Virus record (IMG/VR): IMGVR_UViG_3300027736_000276
Span: 1-21,885 of that record
Source: a virus
Reading direction: 5' to 3' (one strand)
Length of the DNA stretch: 21,885 bases
The position numbers and the translations under genes were made by a program. Within the stretch, counting starts at the first letter, position 1. Each line of letters starts with the position of its first letter. Below are positions 2,516-21,458 of the stretch, one piece after another. The notes under the pieces are model-generated. The model had not been told where the DNA came from, searched no databases, and saw only the letters and a list, made by a program, of their open reading frames with translations.

Positions 2516-3166
2516 CTATTTTTTTTTTACTGGTTGAGTTCCATTCACTAATAAAGTGTTGTCAATGTCTGACACTACGATTCCTGATTTAGCTCGAGCA
2601 GATAACTTCATCAGTTTAACCTGATTAAGTCGTTTTTGTATTTCTACTAACTCATCCTGTTTTTCTGCTAAGAAACTTGACAGGCTTCTTAGACCTATTT
2701 CAGTATTTAAGTAGGCTGGGTAGGTGACCGCAGACACATCATGTAAATCGACATCGAGCAGGGTTCGGATGTTCTTATCACCTTCTTTATCCCATGCATC
2801 CTTCTTGGTGATGAAAGCAAATGACATCTGGGTAACATCACCCCTACTCATCGAGACCATGAGATCCCTTGCATAGCTGGTATCAGGTGGGGTGATTTCT
2901 ACTAGTAACCCTTCAGAATCCACAGAAAGATTAAGAGTGCCACTGGTGGACCTTCCTAGAATTAGATTCTGATCATGGTTAATAAGTGCGCGAACATCTG
3001 CACCCTGCGCCAATGACCTTGTGAAAGCTTTGGGATCTATCTGTTCTAAAAATCCACCCAAGTCCTGAGACCTATTAGGGCTGAACTTGGCAGCATAACC
3101 CACCAGTTTCTTCCCATCTTGCTCTACCCTAAATTCTGTGGTGAATCTTGTTTCTAGTTTAACCAT
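2516..3166 (-). CDS. HK97-family prohead protease, with the start of a HAD-like domain at its C-terminus
   Basis: This 216-residue protein is the serine protease that matures the prohead by cutting the capsid delta domain and itself. The core covers residues 1-165: FTTEFRV start, GYAAKFSP, His64 in ALINHDQN, Ser115 in QMSFAF, and the closing VDLHDVSAVTYPAY segment. A short coiled coil follows (EKQDELVEIQKRLNQVKLMK). Residues 195-206 (GIVVSDIDNTLL) do not belong to the protease. They match HAD motif I, with Asp200 and Asp202 as candidate nucleophile and acid/base. The frame then stops at TAG 2518 right after ten A. It overlaps the portal gene by 13 bases. The protease call is firm; the HAD reading rests on motif order on both sides of the A-run. 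Confidence 0.92.
   Translation of the reverse strand: MVKLETRFTTEFRVEQDGKKLVGYAAKFSPNRSQDLGGFLEQIDPKAFTRSLAQGADVRALINHDQNLILGRSTSGTLNLSVDSEGLLVEITPPDTSYARDLMVSMSRGDVTQMSFAFITKKDAWDKEGDKNIRTLLDVDLHDVSAVTYPAYLNTEIGLRSLSSFLAEKQDELVEIQKRLNQVKLMKLSARAKSGIVVSDIDNTLLVNGTQPVKKK
2519..2528 (-). other. run of ten A at the protease stop: possible slippage site
   Basis: On the minus strand the protease ends GTA AAA AAA AAA TAG. Slipping back one base, or adding one A, gives AAA ATA GAT CAG and continues in the frame that holds the rest of the HAD-like domain. The run contains the A AAA AAA type of slippery heptamer and is long enough for RNA polymerase stutter. It is equally a typical place for a sequencing error. 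No strong downstream pseudoknot was recognised by eye. Confidence 0.6.
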
Positions 3167-5013
3167 GTGACTTTCTCCCAGTTAGCTTTGGTATCAATCC
3201 AGTTCAATAATTTAGCATCGGACAAAAGTTTTAGATTTCTTGGTGTGGCTGATCCAGCTAAGTCCAACCATTCAGCCTTTAATGCTTCACAGTGATCTGC
3301 AGCAGCTCGGACACCACCACCCGATTCAGGCTGAATGAATTCCATGACAGGTTCCAAGATAATCTGGACCCGCTCTTGGTGGGCTTCAAGAAACTTCTCA
3401 AGTGCTGTAATAAAATCCCCAGGCTTATTAGAAATTCTTCCAAGATGGTTGGCTTCAATCTTGCGGATTTGTTTTCTGGCAGCTTCCAACAACTTAGCAA
3501 AGCCAAAGGTATTTTGTTGGGGTGCAGGTGGTGGGGTTGGATCGGGTGCGGGTGGATTAATTTTTAAACCTGAGAAGATGGAATCCAAAATAGTCTGATC
3601 CAGAAATGGGAAGGATGCTAGGGCAATTGCCTTGGCTGATTCCATCGGGATAAGACCTTCACCAACCTTAGCCACTAGATCGACCAACGATGTGATCTGT
3701 GCGTCATTTAAAGCTGTTGCTGCCACACCTGCGGTAGGTGGTGCTATTGGTGCTGATGCTGTTGGGTCTTGTGGGCTTGTTGGAAGCTGCCCAGTCAGGG
3801 CTGCAGCATCTACTGCCACCTGTGATTGCCCAGGACCAAATGCTGGATCCATGTTTTTTGGAATCATATACCCATCAAGTCCTGATATGCTCGGAAGGTT
3901 CTCAAGTGCCCTAACATCATTACGGCTTAGCCAGCCCCAGTTCAAAGCCTGAGCATAGAAAGATGATCTGCCTGCAGTGTCACCCCTTAAAAGTGCATCT
4001 TGATTATGCTCTGCATAAAGCTGGTCAAGCGAGCTGATCAACTTGAAGTTAATTTCCTGCTCCCATCGGATTAGCCAAGGGCGCAAAGTTTCCTGAAGGA
4101 ATGCTAGATTATCTTGCTCAAGGCTGCTGTAAGTTCCTGCACCAGCACCAATTTTGCTGGCTGGAATTTTGAACCATCGTGCCACTTCTTGAAGCTGGAA
4201 TGATCTAGATGCTATCCACTGGGCATCATCGGGTGGGGTTCCTATGGTCTGATAGGTTACACCATTTTGCAATATCGCTACTCGATGTGCATTCTTAACA
4301 GTCGCATGCATATCCTCCCATGATTTCCTCATGTTCTGAATAGCTTCACTATTTAGTTTGCCAGGAACACTGATGACCCCAGCAGGTTTTCCACCCTGGC
4401 CAAAGAAGGTAGATCCAAATTCCTCAACGGCCATACCAAGACCAATACTATTTTTAGCCTGGGCAATTACTGAGTAGCCTTTGACCCCATCAAAGCTCAA
4501 GCCCTTGATGTGCAAAATCTCAGTGGGTAAAAAGATCACTGATCCGTATTTGTAAAACAGTTCCCCTTTTTCATCTCGCACAGGTTCAACCTGTGAAGGA
4601 TCGAGTGGCCAGAGTTGTTGCACCCTGCCAGAGTTTTTATCCCTTACAATTTCTGCATAGCCATTACCCCATACCAAAGCATGACCCATGAGGGTTTCAC
4701 GAAAAGTAAGTGCGCTCATTTCTGGGTTTGGCTGGTCGTGCAGGATTCGATAAAGTGGGTGGTCATTGGCCTTTGATCTTGAACCATCATGACCCCTGCG
4801 GAATACTTGCAATGGCAGACTGGCTACACCTTCAGAGATAGCCCGAACTGCTGCCCACACTGCGGAATAAGTCATCGATGATGCCTGATTAACATTCTGG
4901 CCAGTGGTAGAAATGCCTGTGTAGGTCCATGATCCAGAGTCGGTGACCAAACTATAGCCAGCTAATTTGTTGATGGTGTTTGCAAATAAAGATCGTAGGG
5001 ATTTTAATGGCAT
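3154..5013 (-). CDS. portal protein, HK97 family, with long C-terminal extension
   Basis: The portal is the dodecameric ring at one head vertex through which DNA enters and leaves. Residues 1-410 match HK97-type portals: MTYSAVWAAVRAISEGVASL near residue 50, HPLYRILHDQPNPEMSALTF, the GNGYAEIVRD segment, ILHIKGLSFDG, and FKIPASKIGAG followed by LEQDNLAFLQETLRPWL. The last 210 residues are unusual in length. They hold a Pro/Ala linker, a helical segment ITSLVDLVAKVGEGLIPMES, a second proline-rich linker (PPAPDPTPPPAPQQ) and a charged helical end. Similar helical appendages with 'NDAQITSLVDLVAKV' followed by 'FP' are seen on other portal families. Start ATG 5013 lies four bases after the large terminase stop. 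Confidence 0.94.
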   Translation of the reverse strand: MPLKSLRSLFANTINKLAGYSLVTDSGSWTYTGISTTGQNVNQASSMTYSAVWAAVRAISEGVASLPLQVFRRGHDGSRSKANDHPLYRILHDQPNPEMSALTFRETLMGHALVWGNGYAEIVRDKNSGRVQQLWPLDPSQVEPVRDEKGELFYKYGSVIFLPTEILHIKGLSFDGVKGYSVIAQAKNSIGLGMAVEEFGSTFFGQGGKPAGVISVPGKLNSEAIQNMRKSWEDMHATVKNAHRVAILQNGVTYQTIGTPPDDAQWIASRSFQLQEVARWFKIPASKIGAGAGTYSSLEQDNLAFLQETLRPWLIRWEQEINFKLISSLDQLYAEHNQDALLRGDTAGRSSFYAQALNWGWLSRNDVRALENLPSISGLDGYMIPKNMDPAFGPGQSQVAVDAAALTGQLPTSPQDPTASAPIAPPTAGVAATALNDAQITSLVDLVAKVGEGLIPMESAKAIALASFPFLDQTILDSIFSGLKINPPAPDPTPPPAPQQNTFGFAKLLEAARKQIRKIEANHLGRISNKPGDFITALEKFLEAHQERVQIILEPVMEFIQPESGGGVRAAADHCEALKAEWLDLAGSATPRNLKLLSDAKLLNWIDTKANWEKVTWLN

Positions 5014-8690: not shown

Positions 8691-9359
8691 TCAGCCATAA
8701 GTCCTAACAGATGCATCTACAATCATTCTTGGTGGTTCTTCCTCTGGTGCTTGAAATCGTTTGACGATCCTGTCTAAGATTTCATTCAGTTCTTTGCTCG
8801 CATTGGGTGTCAGGTCATTGATGGTTTTAGCCAGGTTGCGCTCGGACTCTTCAGCTTGCGCCATGTGTCTCATCCAGTTGGGGTTCCTTAGTTCGTAAAG
8901 TTCCAAGGTCATTACTGATTTTTTTCCCTCACCAGATGCAGTGGTCTTGAATGGCAGAGAGTTGATGCAGATGCAGCTAACCCAGCTTTTAATCTTAGAT
9001 GTCCAGATCCCATCTTTCACATGCGATAGGAATGGCACCAACACTAAACCAGTTCCCCTGCACATCGAGCAGTCAGCCACCTCAGGTTTAACAGTCCTGC
9101 GGTAATTATCCCTGCGGATCCTTAAAGCCTTTTCAAGTTCGTAAATCGTTTCCTCCCGCTTAAATATTTTGACCCCAGTCAAATCCTTGGAAGCTGCCAA
9201 AAGTTCCTCAGGTCCATAACCTTCACCTGCAAAGTAGGTTGACCAGGCTAAAAGCATCTTCAGTTCTCGTTCCTGATCCCAGCCGTAAAAGGTGGAGTGA
9301 AACTGAATCCAATCAGGCCAATCGAAATAAGGTTGGTTTGCATCGATGATCATATTCAT
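8691..9359 (-). CDS. hypothetical protein with internal zinc-finger-like Cys cluster
   Basis: This 222-residue protein is not recognised. The N-terminal half is helical and acidic-aromatic (ANQPYFDWPDWIQFHSTFYG). The middle holds CSMCRGTG, with a second cluster WVSCIC about 26 residues later, resembling a DnaJ-type or ribbon zinc site. The C-terminal half is charged and helical and ends EEEPPRMIVDASVRTYG. ATG 9359 is chosen because AAAGGA lies eight bases upstream, in a leader identical to that of the PAPS-reductase-like gene. The frame is open up to a TTG at 9395, which lacks a ribosome binding site. Position between replication-type and nuclease genes suggests a DNA-metabolism role, without direct proof. 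Confidence 0.7.
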   Translation of the reverse strand: MNMIIDANQPYFDWPDWIQFHSTFYGWDQERELKMLLAWSTYFAGEGYGPEELLAASKDLTGVKIFKREETIYELEKALRIRRDNYRRTVKPEVADCSMCRGTGLVLVPFLSHVKDGIWTSKIKSWVSCICINSLPFKTTASGEGKKSVMTLELYELRNPNWMRHMAQAEESERNLAKTINDLTPNASKELNEILDRIVKRFQAPEEEPPRMIVDASVRTYG

Positions 9360-9372
9360 GGTTGAATCCTTT
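9355..9372 (-). promoter_or_regulatory. shared translation leader, copy 1
   Basis: AAAGGATTCAACCATGAA covers the ribosome binding site and start codon of the 222-residue gene. The same 18 bases recur at 10200-10217, and a near copy with one added T precedes the winged-helix gene at 15086. AGGA also fits the core of a CsrA site. Confidence 0.6.
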
Positions 9373-9376
9373 AAAA

Positions 9377-9559
9377 TCAGTCTGTACAAAAACAAGAAAC
9401 GGTATCATCAAAATCTGTAAATAATGGCAATTGCATTTTGGACTGCTTAACTATGCTTTCATAGCTTGGCCGATCTTTCCTGAAAGTATGGTTCTTTGCA
9501 GTTGCTGAACCAATGATCTTGGCCTCTTGAGCTATCCACCAATCCAAAGCTGCTGGGTC
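9377..9559 (-). pseudogene. C-terminal remnant of the PAPS-reductase-like gene, in frame after the TAA
   Basis: The 60 codons after the TAA stay in the same frame and reach a TGA at 9379-9377, 17 bases before the next gene. They encode DPAALDWWIAQEAK, then HTFRKDRPSYESIV and a final DFDDTVSCFCTD. The FRKDRPSYE motif and the CFCTD end are what I expect at the C-terminus of phage PAPS-reductase-like proteins. The break is therefore one nonsense codon in an otherwise intact gene of about 275 codons. Readthrough, a recent mutation or a sequence error are all possible. Confidence 0.75.
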
Positions 9560-10204
9560 TTACTTGGCTACAAGGTCAAGTCTATATCTAGATTTCAGGA
9601 AACACCCTTGGCAGTTGCCATGATGCATCTGAAGGCTTAAATCAAATGACTGCTTGTTCCAGAATGAAAAGATTTCTGGCAGTGTGTTCTTAGCTTCAAA
9701 GATTGGAAAGATTGCAGGGTTGCGCCTAGAGTTTGATTTAACATTAGCCACCCTTCTTGGTTCGTCATACCTAAGGCCAATAGCTTGGTTGCACTTTTTA
9801 AACTCTGCTCCAAGGGTTTTCACATACCTGTCCAAAAGTCTTATCTTCAGCTCCACTGTACAAAACCTAGCAACTGGGTTGGGTAGGTATTGTCTCTCAT
9901 CAATCAGAATTCCAAAGGGTTCACCATTTCTGGAAGCTGTTTCAAAGGTAACTACTTTGTATCTTTCATCATGTATTTTTCCTTGATATTCAATCCAAGT
10001 AATTTTAATGCCCCAGTTAGCTTCACAAGCTTTGATAAATTCGTAAGTTTTTTCATGTTCTAATCCTGTGTTGCAGAAAACTACTTTTATCCCATCTGGA
10101 AGTTTGCCATCATAAGCCTCAATAATTTTTGCGAGCATGTACCCAGAAGTTCTACCACCTGAAAAACTAATGATGGCAGGGTATTCAATTCTGTAAGGGT
10201 TCAT
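9560..10204 (-). CDS. PAPS-reductase-like protein (PP-loop), truncated by an in-frame TAA
   Basis: The 214 residues form the N-terminal part of a phosphoadenosine-phosphosulfate reductase family protein (adenine-nucleotide alpha hydrolase fold). The PP-loop is IISFSGGRTSGYM (residues 11-23). Cys-containing family segments follow: VVFCNTGLEHEKT, NPVARFCTVELKI, and MHHGNCQGCFLKSRYRL near the end. Phage members are common near replication genes; sulfur or nucleotide chemistry, such as DNA modification, is proposed for relatives but not shown here. The frame ends at TAA 9562-9560 in the middle of a helix, and family-like sequence continues in the same frame for 60 codons. ATG 10204 overlaps the upstream stop and has AAAGGA eight bases upstream. 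Confidence 0.85.
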   Translation of the reverse strand: MNPYRIEYPAIISFSGGRTSGYMLAKIIEAYDGKLPDGIKVVFCNTGLEHEKTYEFIKACEANWGIKITWIEYQGKIHDERYKVVTFETASRNGEPFGILIDERQYLPNPVARFCTVELKIRLLDRYVKTLGAEFKKCNQAIGLRYDEPRRVANVKSNSRRNPAIFPIFEAKNTLPEIFSFWNKQSFDLSLQMHHGNCQGCFLKSRYRLDLVAK

Positions 10205-10217
10205 GGTTGAATCCTTT
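10200..10217 (-). promoter_or_regulatory. shared translation leader, copy 2
   Basis: Identical 18 bases to 9355-9372, here at the start of the PAPS-reductase-like gene. The upstream half lies inside the end of the preceding replication-type gene, so identity is not forced by coding. Confidence 0.6.
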
Positions 10218-10995
10218 GTGGTAATTGAAATCCCCTGGGCATTGCTGCTAAGGCTTCTTGAAGATTGGGTTTGGGTTTGCCATTGGTTTGAAAGCTTCTT
10301 GGTTGGGCTGGCCTATCTGTTTGGTTTGCCATCCATCTGGATAGGAATGCTGGCATTCCCTTTGCCGTCTTTCTCTTAGCTGGGGTTGTCTCTGACCAAA
10401 GCTTGGCCTTCTTAATCCAATCCAAAATAGGGGCATCTGGATAGGCTTCTTGGATCTGATTAAAAAGCTTTTGAGTTAGTGACCATGTTTTGGGATTTCC
10501 TACACATGGAAAAATCATTTCAGGTTGGTAAAGTTCTGGGGTGGTTGGCTCAGAGATGGGAACCAGCTCAGAGCAGGTGTCTGCCTCTCCTCTACTCTCT
10601 CTCTCCTCTGTCTCTTCTCTCCTCTCCTCTTCTCTCTCTCTAGGCACTGTTTTGCGTACATTTGCTTGCATGTTGCTAGCATCTGCTTGCATGTTGCTAG
10701 CATCGACCTCAACAATTTTAAATAACCCCTTATCCAGTAAAGACTTAATGCCTTTAGAACATTCTGCATCAGACACCCTCAGCACCACTGCTATGTCTTC
10801 AATGTTGTAGGGTATGTGTCCATCTGTATAGGCACTGGCTAAAATCCACAACATGGGGCAAAGTGATCTCCCAAAGACATCAAGGCGCAGAAATGCAGGG
10901 TCCATTAGGCACCCTCTGTGCAGTTTTATCCAGGGTGGATTCCTGTTCTTGTAGTGTTGAAAGTTGGACCAGTTTTTAGGTACTAGGAATTTCAT
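10201..10995 (-). CDS. putative replication initiation protein (winged-helix N-terminus)
   Basis: This 264-residue protein resembles phage replication initiators of the DnaD or replisome-organiser kind. Residues 20-100 look like a winged helix: PPWIKLHRGCLMDPAFLRL, HIPYNIEDIAVVLRV, GIKSLLDKGLFKIVEV. The middle is a strongly charged linker with REREEERREETEERESRGE and a doubled ASNMQAD peptide from a 21-base tandem repeat. The C-terminal third has WSLTQKLFNQIQEAYPDAPI and GMPAFLSRWMANQ, similar in style to the end of phage replication proteins that load helicase. Its place in the early region before RusA supports the call. The exact family was not identified. Confidence 0.6.
   Translation of the reverse strand: MKFLVPKNWSNFQHYKNRNPPWIKLHRGCLMDPAFLRLDVFGRSLCPMLWILASAYTDGHIPYNIEDIAVVLRVSDAECSKGIKSLLDKGLFKIVEVDASNMQADASNMQANVRKTVPREREEERREETEERESRGEADTCSELVPISEPTTPELYQPEMIFPCVGNPKTWSLTQKLFNQIQEAYPDAPILDWIKKAKLWSETTPAKRKTAKGMPAFLSRWMANQTDRPAQPRSFQTNGKPKPNLQEALAAMPRGFQLPQRIQP
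10663..10704 (-). repeat. two perfect 21-bp tandem repeats inside the replication-type gene
   Basis: TGCTTGCATGTTGCTAGCATC (plus strand) occurs at 10663-10683 and again at 10684-10704 without mismatch, adding seven residues to the protein linker. Next to it, 10584-10643 is an almost pure pyrimidine tract on the plus strand. Two copies only; an iteron-type origin is possible but not shown. Confidence 0.85.
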
Positions 10996-11013: not shown

Positions 11014-11110
11014 GGGTGGGGTAATTCCCCCACCCTGTGTTTAAAACCCCATTGCAAATGTTAAACCCCAGCATCAACAACAAGTCTTAGCTGGCATCAT
11101 TTGCAATGGG
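11014..11110 (-). terminator. structured intergenic region: terminator-like stem plus GC-rich hairpin
   Basis: CCCATTGCAAATG (11048-11060) and its exact reverse complement (11098-11110) form a 13-bp stem. A smaller CCAGC/GCTGG stem lies inside, and on the minus strand GTTTT follows the outer stem. A second hairpin, GGGTGGGG/CCCCACCC (11014-11021 and 11028-11035), comes next, just before the replication-type gene. The outer stem covers the stop of the upstream gene. This could be a terminator or attenuator, or a single-strand origin-like structure. Confidence 0.5.
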
Positions 11111-11408
11111 ATTGCTCCTTTAAACTGTTAGCGATCGCCAGATAAGCTGCAGCATCTTCCAAACTGTCCTGATGATGCCCTTTAGAAAGTCGCGCAATCT
11201 TCAGTAATGACATCATGATGGCAACATCGTAGGGAGTGGTTTTGCAATCGGTGTAGGTCTGCCAGTACAGTGCGATTTTAGCCAGGCTAATTGCTGGGGG
11301 TTCATACTCAGCAGCTCGCTCTCTTATTAGGTCATAGCACCTCTCAAAGAATGCGCTGATGTTTTCATGTTCATCTGGTGGAAGATGTGGGATGGATTGG
11401 TTAGTCAT
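11097..11408 (-). CDS. DUF6378-like phage protein
   Basis: This 103-residue protein contains the pattern seen in DUF6378 phage proteins. ERAAEYEPPAISLAKIALYW is followed by TTPYDVAIMMSLLKIARLSKG and a closing SLEDAAAYLAIA. The helical make-up with conserved Glu and Asp resembles MazG-like nucleotide pyrophosphohydrolases, but I see no certain catalytic set, so only the family name is offered. The start ATG 11408 overlaps the upstream stop by ATGA, so the gene is coupled to the one before it. Its stop codon lies in the arm of a long inverted repeat. Confidence 0.7.
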   Translation of the reverse strand: MTNQSIPHLPPDEHENISAFFERCYDLIRERAAEYEPPAISLAKIALYWQTYTDCKTTPYDVAIMMSLLKIARLSKGHHQDSLEDAAAYLAIANSLKEQSHCK

Positions 11409-19620: not shown

Positions 19621-20628
19621 TTAGCTCCGAGTGAAGATTGAGACTGTGCCAGAAGATTGGTAATTCGTTGCGTAAACATTTTTACCATCAGCAGAAATAC
19701 AGATTCCATAAGGACTCGTGCCAGTGGCAATGGTGGTGCTTCCAGATAAGGCACCACTAGAAGTATTCCGAGAAAATATTGAGACCGTGTTTCCATTGCT
19801 ATTAGTTACATAGACGCTTGCACCATCCGCAGAGATGCATACATTTCTAGGGTAAGCTCCTGTGGCAATCGTACTGGTTCCAGAGAGTGCCCCTGTACTG
19901 GTGTTTCGTGTAAATATTGATAAAGTAGAGGTGTCGTTATTAACTGCATAGACACTAGCCCCATCAGCAGAAATACAAATTCCACTAGGATTTGTTCCTG
20001 TGGCAATCGTACTGGTTCCAGAGAGTGCGCCTGTGCTTGTGTTTCGTGTAAATATTGAGACAGTGGCAGAACTATAGTTAGTTACATAGACACTAGCCCC
20101 ATCAGCAGAAATGCAGATAGCTCTTGGGCTAGACCCAGTGGCAATGGTACTCGTCCCAGATAATGCACCTGTGCTGGTGTTTCGTGTAAATATTGATACC
20201 GATGTGCCGTAAGCATTTGGAGCATAGACATTTTTTCCATCGGCTGAGATGCACACATCATTAGGGCCAGACCCTGTCGCTATCGTGCTGCTTCCAGAAA
20301 GTGCGCCTGTGCTTGTGTTTCGTGTAAATATGGATAAGGTGTTAGGCGAGTTATTCGCCACATAAACGCTTGCACCATCGGCAGAAATACAAATTCCGTC
20401 AGGATTCGTACCTGTTGCAATTGTACTCGTCCCAGATAATGCCCCTGTGCTGGTGTTGCGTGTAAATATTGAAGTAGTATTGCCAATGTAGTTTGCTGTA
20501 TAAACGCTTGCACCATCCGCAGAAATACAAATAGCTATAGGGTAAGCTCCACTAGCGATAGTGCTAGTGCCAGATAATGCGCCACCCGCAGCCCTACTCA
20601 CACCCATGATTTTTCTATTAATTGGCAT
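19621..20628 (-). CDS. seven-repeat beta-propeller-like tail protein
   Basis: After a short start (MPINRKIMGVSRAA) the 335-residue protein consists of seven 46-residue repeats. A typical unit reads GALSGTSTIATG..P..ICISADGASVY..N...NTLSIFTRNTST, close to the YVTN/lactonase type blade. Seven blades would close a complete propeller. Its place between a repeat fibre and a tail assembly-like gene suggests a receptor-binding tip. Repeats are near identical in DNA too, at a 138-base period, which favours unequal recombination. ATG 20628 overlaps the upstream TAA (TAATG); the longer open frame to 20679 lies inside the upstream gene. No enzyme residues were identified. Confidence 0.85.
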   Translation of the reverse strand: MPINRKIMGVSRAAGGALSGTSTIASGAYPIAICISADGASVYTANYIGNTTSIFTRNTSTGALSGTSTIATGTNPDGICISADGASVYVANNSPNTLSIFTRNTSTGALSGSSTIATGSGPNDVCISADGKNVYAPNAYGTSVSIFTRNTSTGALSGTSTIATGSSPRAICISADGASVYVTNYSSATVSIFTRNTSTGALSGTSTIATGTNPSGICISADGASVYAVNNDTSTLSIFTRNTSTGALSGTSTIATGAYPRNVCISADGASVYVTNSNGNTVSIFSRNTSSGALSGSTTIATGTSPYGICISADGKNVYATNYQSSGTVSIFTRS

Positions 20629-21458
20629 TAGAAGTTTTGGCCTCCTACCATAGCAAACCAAGTTGTACCGCCATCCCAAGTGGTCAACACAAAGATGTCC
20701 ACTTTGTTATTGGTACTTGTCAAAGTTGGTGCCGTACCGCCACTCCACTTTACTGCTGCTGGCCATGTGACAGCCCTAGCGGTTCCATCAGCGGTAAAAG
20801 CTAAAGTAAGTCCGTATGCGGTTCCGGTAGTCGGAATGTTGGAAAAAGTTATGCTCGTAATCGCTGCATTGAGCGAAACATGAAACACATTTCCAGAGGC
20901 ACAATTTAAAGCTAACACACCAGAGGCAATTGCTGGTGCGGTCTTGACTTCATTTAATCCGGTGATGGTTGGGGTGGTAAGTGCTGGACTGGTTGCAAAA
21001 ACAGCAAGCCCGCTGCCTGTTTCATCCGTGAGGCATGAGGCAAGATTTGCACTTGATGGTGTAGCCAAGAAAGTTGCAACACTTGTGCCAAGGCCAGAGA
21101 CACCTGTGGAGATTGGCAAGCCAGTGCATGAAGTTAGCGTTCCGCTGGCAGGTGTGCCGAGTATAGGAGTAACTAGCGTAGGGCTAGTGGCGAAAACATT
21201 TGCCCCTGTGCCAGTTTCATCTGTCAATGCTGCTGCTAAATTTGCTGATGTTGGTGTAGCCAAAAAAGTCGCAACACTTGTACCAAGTCCAGAAACTCCT
21301 GTCGAGATTGGCAAGCCAGTGCAAGAGGTTAGCGTTCCAGATGTTGGTGTGCCAAGTATAGGAGTGACGAGCGTAGGTGAAGTCAGCGAAAGCGTATCAC
21401 CGCTTTGCAGTTCCTGCACTGTGGTCGTGTTCACTACTAGTGGATATCGTGCTGCCAT
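20628..21458 (-). CDS. tail fibre/tip protein with 65-residue repeats
   Basis: This 276-residue protein has two full 65-residue repeats (residues 27-91 and 92-156). Each contains SPTLVTPILGTP.SGTLTSC, TGLPISTGVSGLGTSVATFL and ATP.SANLA..LTDETG.G..VFAT; a partial third copy follows. This repeat is very widespread in phage tail fibres. The C-terminal 100 residues form a beta-rich domain (VFHVSLNAAITSITFSNIPT and AVTWPAAVKWSGGTAPTLTS) found at the ends of fibres and probably trimerising or receptor-facing. AAGGAAA lies close upstream of ATG 21458. It is followed at once by the propeller gene in TAATG coupling. Confidence 0.9.
   Translation of the reverse strand: MAARYPLVVNTTTVQELQSGDTLSLTSPTLVTPILGTPTSGTLTSCTGLPISTGVSGLGTSVATFLATPTSANLAAALTDETGTGANVFATSPTLVTPILGTPASGTLTSCTGLPISTGVSGLGTSVATFLATPSSANLASCLTDETGSGLAVFATSPALTTPTITGLNEVKTAPAIASGVLALNCASGNVFHVSLNAAITSITFSNIPTTGTAYGLTLAFTADGTARAVTWPAAVKWSGGTAPTLTSTNNKVDIFVLTTWDGGTTWFAMVGGQNF
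20991..21380 (-). repeat. two 195-bp tandem repeats in the tail-fibre gene
   Basis: Units at 21186-21380 and 20991-21185 encode the 65-residue fibre repeat and are highly similar in DNA (for example GTATAGGAGT at both, 195 bases apart). Such repeats allow length change of the fibre by recombination. Confidence 0.85.

Follow-up and report, generated by a model that had tools for sequence, protein, structure and literature searches.

We found that the window, an entire virus record of 21,885 bases from a metagenome assembly, carries on its minus strand a NinC-like gene (9377-10204) that is interrupted by a single in-frame TAA, and we consider it likely that a recent nonsense mutation produced this allele of an optional, swappable phage gene, with a short and probably inactive product. 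The intact gene would encode a NinC-like protein of about 275 residues with the PP-loop/PAPS-reductase fold, and would be a removable cassette that is passed among related phages, seated at the overlapping junction that joins a replication gene to one of unknown function. The TAA at codon 215 would have arisen by one substitution, ending translation after 214 residues and removing the invariant Cys-x-Cys tail together with two predicted helices. Since these helices and the tail would be lost, the product is presumed inactive, and the loss would be tolerated because the gene is optional and most relatives do not have it.

The interrupted reading frame and its close relatives

Translation of the minus strand from position 10204 gave 214 codons (9563-10204), which hold the PF01507 domain at residues 11-169 and were assigned using Pfam and phrog_424, followed by a TAA at codon 215 (9562-9560). 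Past this TAA the same frame stays open for 60 codons up to a TGA at 9379-9377. The orphaned stretch (9377-9559 including the TGA, minus strand) contains FRKDRPSYE and CFCTD, corresponds to the conserved C-terminal region of the homologues and ends in Cys-x-Cys-Thr-Asp, and the ATG of the neighbouring gene (9359-9357) lies 17 bases beyond the TGA. A preliminary description had reported the 60-codon continuation with both motifs and the 17-base gap, and translation confirmed it. Among 36 window genes picked as likely real, 14 are closed by TGA, 12 by TAA and 10 by TAG. Genome-wide reassignment of TAA was ruled out by these 12 genes, in agreement with the earlier statement that TAA is a true stop elsewhere in the window and that general recoding is not involved.

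When the first 214 residues were used as query, four viral loci were matched, three of them at 95-100% identity, and the last 60 residues alone matched nine loci, including the same three at 97-100% protein identity. The tail is part of the gene, beyond chance, since three viral records have intact genes whose C-terminus is this similar. In these close relatives (L002, L003 and L004), whose proteins are 95-99% identical to that of the window, the frame is open across the stop site (9560-9562, minus strand in the window), where a Glu codon stands. This single open frame ruled out two separate overlapping genes, and it supports the earlier proposal that one codon change restores a protein of about 275 residues. 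The window gene differs from that of L002, the closest relative, at 5 of 828 bases. Three of these differences precede the stop (two silent changes and one Val/Met replacement), one creates it, and the last, beyond it, is silent. The stop appears young, since the tail is without decay and just this one silent difference from L002 was found past the stop. The TAA is private to the window record among the records compared, and a motif scan found the same motif with the TAA in 0 viral contigs, the window's own record being possibly outside that scan.

A base error, that is, a consensus or sequencing mistake in the record of a phage population whose gene is intact, would also fit the TAA, which no other record shows, which results from a single-base change in undecayed surroundings and which stands in a gene otherwise nearly identical to intact L002. 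The base change behind the stop is a transversion, and DNA damage can also mimic changes of this type. We regard such an error as rather unlikely, and against it the record does not appear error-rich: in a comparison of the window with five near-relative records, which covered 17,346 of its 21,885 bases, no other gene looked broken and no internal stop in other genes was judged real. In this comparison 23 of the 106 matched frames showed a stop or a split and were flagged, and those other than the NinC-like gene were judged by position alone, as antisense or upstream-start frames, a difference in portal length and the replication gene, which is chimeric.

Family, fold and conservation of the removed region

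PF01507 was the sole Pfam match of the gene (28.2 bits, cut-off 22.5). The first 214 residues matched the NinC-like family phrog_424 at 4.2e-45, covering residues 1-208, and intact L002 matched it at 1.2e-50 over residues 1-273. The window gene thus matches the profile of phrog_424, with the tail-cysteine region encoded after the stop and so absent from the predicted product; judged by sequence, the gene is a member of this family by descent and its predicted product is truncated. An intact relative was modelled using AlphaFold2 with 46 sequences, giving a mean pLDDT of 88.8, and the predicted helices lost with the truncation are residues 217-229 and 248-257. The last approximately 15 residues were modelled at low confidence (pLDDT about 50), and the role given to the Cys tail is therefore presumptive. 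The best fold match was 2goy (Z 13.2, rmsd 3.8, 182 residues); PAPS/APS reductases, ATP sulfurylase, LarE, NcsA and GMP synthases were tied at Z of about 12-13 (within 1), and no clear relative turned up when solved structures were searched by sequence (best E 0.032). The intact protein would be an ATP-using PP-loop enzyme, probably activating sulfur or transferring it to a nucleic acid or a small molecule.

Using PADLOC, the SspD model matched 46 of 46 homologues (best 2.5e-20), and the two DndC models matched 16 and 14 of the 46, respectively. All four isolated-phage homologues were matched by the SspD model (33-55 bits) versus one of six host CysH/CysD proteins (17 bits), these controls being labelled CysH/CysD from their tails and neighbours. 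The BrxP model matched 18 of the 46 homologues, and this match is not specific since five of the six CysH/CysD controls were also matched. One of the 46 homologues matched the NCBIfam phosphoadenylyl-sulfate reductase model. By these profiles the predicted product is NinC-like and nearer SspD than CysH, and among the defence-library models it is most similar to SspD. The earlier label 'PAPS-reductase-like' is a loose name, as SspD is nearer than CysH by profile.

For the conservation analysis, 82 homologues were used, consisting of the best 80 of 330 relatives from an alignment-based scan and 2 of 27 genome loci; the other 25 loci were left out as distant or partial. The residue at the stop position in this set (best 80 of 330 plus 2) is E in 68, D in 5, Q in 3, S in 3, L in 2 and A in 1, and 0 of the 82 have a stop at the codon-215 position. 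Cys115, Cys198 and both tail Cys are invariant in the 61 distinct homologues of the set, while Cys201 is present in 60 of the 61. In the removed region, W223, E227, F241, R245, Y248, C271 and C273 are invariant or nearly so in the same 61. The C-terminal Cys-x-Cys occurs in 61/61, with a tail of Cys-x-Cys-(Thr/Gly)-Asp in most homologues, and is lost from the predicted window product. Six annotated phage homologues have lengths of 267-302 aa, all with the tail cysteines, and none of the six ends near residue 214. The preliminary description had taken the tail for family sequence and had named two findings that would speak against this, homologues ending at the same place or extra codons unrelated to the family; on alignment, no homologue examined ends there, and the 60 extra codons are family sequence, conserved in the homologues.

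The 214-residue form could be a working shorter protein with a role of its own, e.g. substrate binding without the tail, and the retention of PF01507 and the fold core would agree with this. We consider it highly unlikely, because no examined family member ends there and the removed region has the columns listed above, invariant or nearly so across the distinct homologues.

Two other homologues also contain a lone in-frame TAA, L052 (2501-3319) at its residue 180 and L062 (1639-2454) at its residue 255, where the near relative L059 reads Gln. A second set of 80 more distant homologues contained no lone nonsense and one frameshift; the frame of this homologue (L226, 455-1290) breaks within its first third. 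As controls, 58 terminase matches gave 0 mid-gene nonsense and one frameshift (L182), and 208 copies of neighbour genes gave 0 mid-gene nonsense. The nonsense excess in the NinC-like family (2/162 versus 0/58 terminase and 0/208 neighbour) was not significant by Fisher test (p about 0.14-0.18, with codon totals supplied partly rounded). The 162 homologues exclude the window and include three proteins identical between the two sets, and the frameshifted L226 and L182 were not scored as nonsense. Nine stops were set aside in the neighbour control, eight of them roughly four codons short of where the gene at 11097 naturally ends and one before the terminase start, and four terminase matches in which a stop preceded the start codon were likewise not counted. 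In 8 of 28 relatives a stop closes the gene at 11097-11408 some four codons sooner, at a position where the window reads Gln (11097-11108, minus strand).

Functional readthrough, or a regulated pair of short and long products, would be compatible with the intact and undecayed frame after the stop and with the lone TAA elsewhere in L052 and L062. A programmed stop would, however, be expected to be conserved, and this one occurs in 0 of the 82 homologues and in no other record; TAA is also a normal stop in the 12 window genes mentioned above, and the TAA sites of the window, L052 and L062 are three different codons. Since the stop is conserved in no relative, readthrough seems most improbable. 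As to a base error, the 2 of 162 other homologues with a lone TAA argue against it in that nonsense alleles occur in the family, although both of these could be errors themselves. The preliminary description had listed a fresh mutation, readthrough and a base error side by side; of these, readthrough is now unlikely, and the TAA is most likely due to one of the other two, with mutation favoured over base error. We infer that the TAA base is real and not an assembly error.

The junction downstream of the replication gene

The left neighbour of the NinC-like gene is a phage replication/DnaD-like protein (10201-10995, minus strand; phrog_26426, 2e-25), and the right neighbour is a gene of unknown function with no convincing family match (8691-9359, minus strand), which was used as the census anchor. 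In L184, L186 and L189, three longer insert-free records that were read, the two flanking genes overlap directly. The census covered 29 records sharing the downstream gene, the window not counted, of which 23 are insert-free with overlapping flanking genes, three (L203, L206 and L208) have an intact NinC-like gene and three (L196 at 2546-3004, L197 and L199) have a 152-codon Mom-like gene at the same junction. When the 29 records were searched by profile over their whole length, the NinC-like gene was found in 3 of 29, the same records as in the census, and the Mom-like phrog_1384 was found in 3 of 30 whole records. The Mom-like protein (152 aa) matched phrog_1384 at 2.7e-34 and PF25680 at 28.5 bits (cut-off 27.1), and its three copies represent one lineage, since the gene and the 1,400 bases that follow it are identical in all three records. 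The NinC-like gene was found in 0 of 26 records with a 93-98% identical terminase (26 of the 28 closest), many of which are short and do not reach across the site. As a cassette the gene is optional, being gained and lost among relatives, and it would appear dispensable in the wild.

The insert of the window is flanked by two exact copies of an 18-bp direct repeat, 845 bases apart. The left copy (10200-10217, minus strand) covers the end of the replication gene, an RBS-like AAAGGA and the start codon of the optional gene, and the right copy (9355-9372, minus strand) covers an RBS-like AAAGGA and the start codon of the next gene. Insert-free L190 has a single 18-bp copy. Exact copies in the intact carriers number two in L208, one in L203 and none in L206; as two copies were present in L208 only among these three, an exact repeat does not always accompany the insertion.

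Relative to L203, the window has 0-2 differences per 60 bases from 10220 to 9440. On the right, past 9380, there are 4-18 per 60; on the left there are 2-13 per 60 as far as 10580, and beyond that point as many as 26. The backbone of the window is close to gene-free L189, with the replication protein 97.7% and the downstream protein 98.2% identical. A near-identity tract with L203 in a backbone near that of gene-free L189 points to a recent entry or exchange of the gene, and we consider that it probably entered or was exchanged in the window backbone recently. The stop would then be younger than this entry or exchange, or an error. The replication protein (10204-10995, minus strand) is itself chimeric among relatives, its C-terminal half being 89% and its N-terminal half 57% identical to that of L095.

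The gene order on the minus strand is the DnaD-like replication protein, the NinC-like gene, two genes of unknown function, a small ORF, RusA, an HNH-like ORF, terminase, portal and head protease, with the HNH-like and terminase labels given by eye. In the portal gene, approximately 76 codons near the C-terminal part (3520-3747, minus strand) are missing from the portals of L220 and L221, giving split matches. Among the late genes, 19621-20679 (minus strand) encodes a protein of about 40-residue repeats (STGALSGTSTIATG...), which looks beta-propeller-like by eye.

Comparison with known systems

The NinC-like phage proteins of phrog_424, which are optional and are likened to the window gene through the profile, are its best profile match, and the window copy differs from this family in being truncated by a stop. 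In the relevant passage of PMC10695390, the nin region of lambda is located after O and P; the window gene likewise adjoins a replication gene and lies upstream of a RusA gene. That passage also gives lambda ninC a PAPS-reductase family label and describes it as nonessential once gene Q is supplied. SspD and DndC are sulfur-transfer proteins of DNA phosphorothioation, in which dndC and sspD are the 'PAPS reductase' according to a review (PMC12707154). The SspD model covers only residues 11-222 of L002, and PADLOC gave no match for the two neighbouring genes scanned, with no sspB/sspC or dndD/dndE partner seen among those two; the records are fragments. Since SspD and DndC matches in prophages are reported in part of PMC12429752, the resemblance is not new in itself.

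The likeness to CysH consists of the PF01507 match above cut-off and the same fold, with 2goy as the best match. The tails are different: three host CysH end in ECG(I/L)H or nearly so, whereas the NinC-like homologues mostly end in Cys-x-Cys-(Thr/Gly)-Asp. The ECG(I/L)H tail is catalytic in CysH PAPS/APS reductase. PAPS reductase genes of phages are listed in papers as cysH-type auxiliary metabolic genes, one example, possibly of another family, being that in PMC8226683; for the NinC-like family this label looks doubtful.

The Mom-like DNA modification gene uses the same junction as the NinC-like gene, but its protein is unrelated. Mom modifies adenine, from which protection of phage DNA was inferred in a passage on jumbo phages (PMC7824862). 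Speculatively, it may be that the junction is a slot for interchangeable DNA-protection genes, holding nothing, a Mom-like gene or an SspD-related NinC-like gene that a point mutation can switch off, and that phage genes of this family called 'PAPS reductase' or cysH may serve nucleic-acid (sulfur) modification and counter-defence, not sulfate assimilation. As a single record, the window presents an ordinary disrupted accessory gene. Related backbones that lack the gene, carry it intact or broken, or have a Mom-like modifier in its place offer a natural comparison for the function of the NinC-like 'PAPS reductase', and the Mom-like alternative at the swap slot is a lead worth keeping. A literature search found no paper joining NinC with PAPS reductase in phage and no paper on nonsense pseudogenes of morons in phage genomes. 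In the neighbourhoods of L303, L123 and L306, the phage homologues adjoin a DNA methyltransferase, a RusA or a dATP/dGTP diphosphohydrolase-domain gene.
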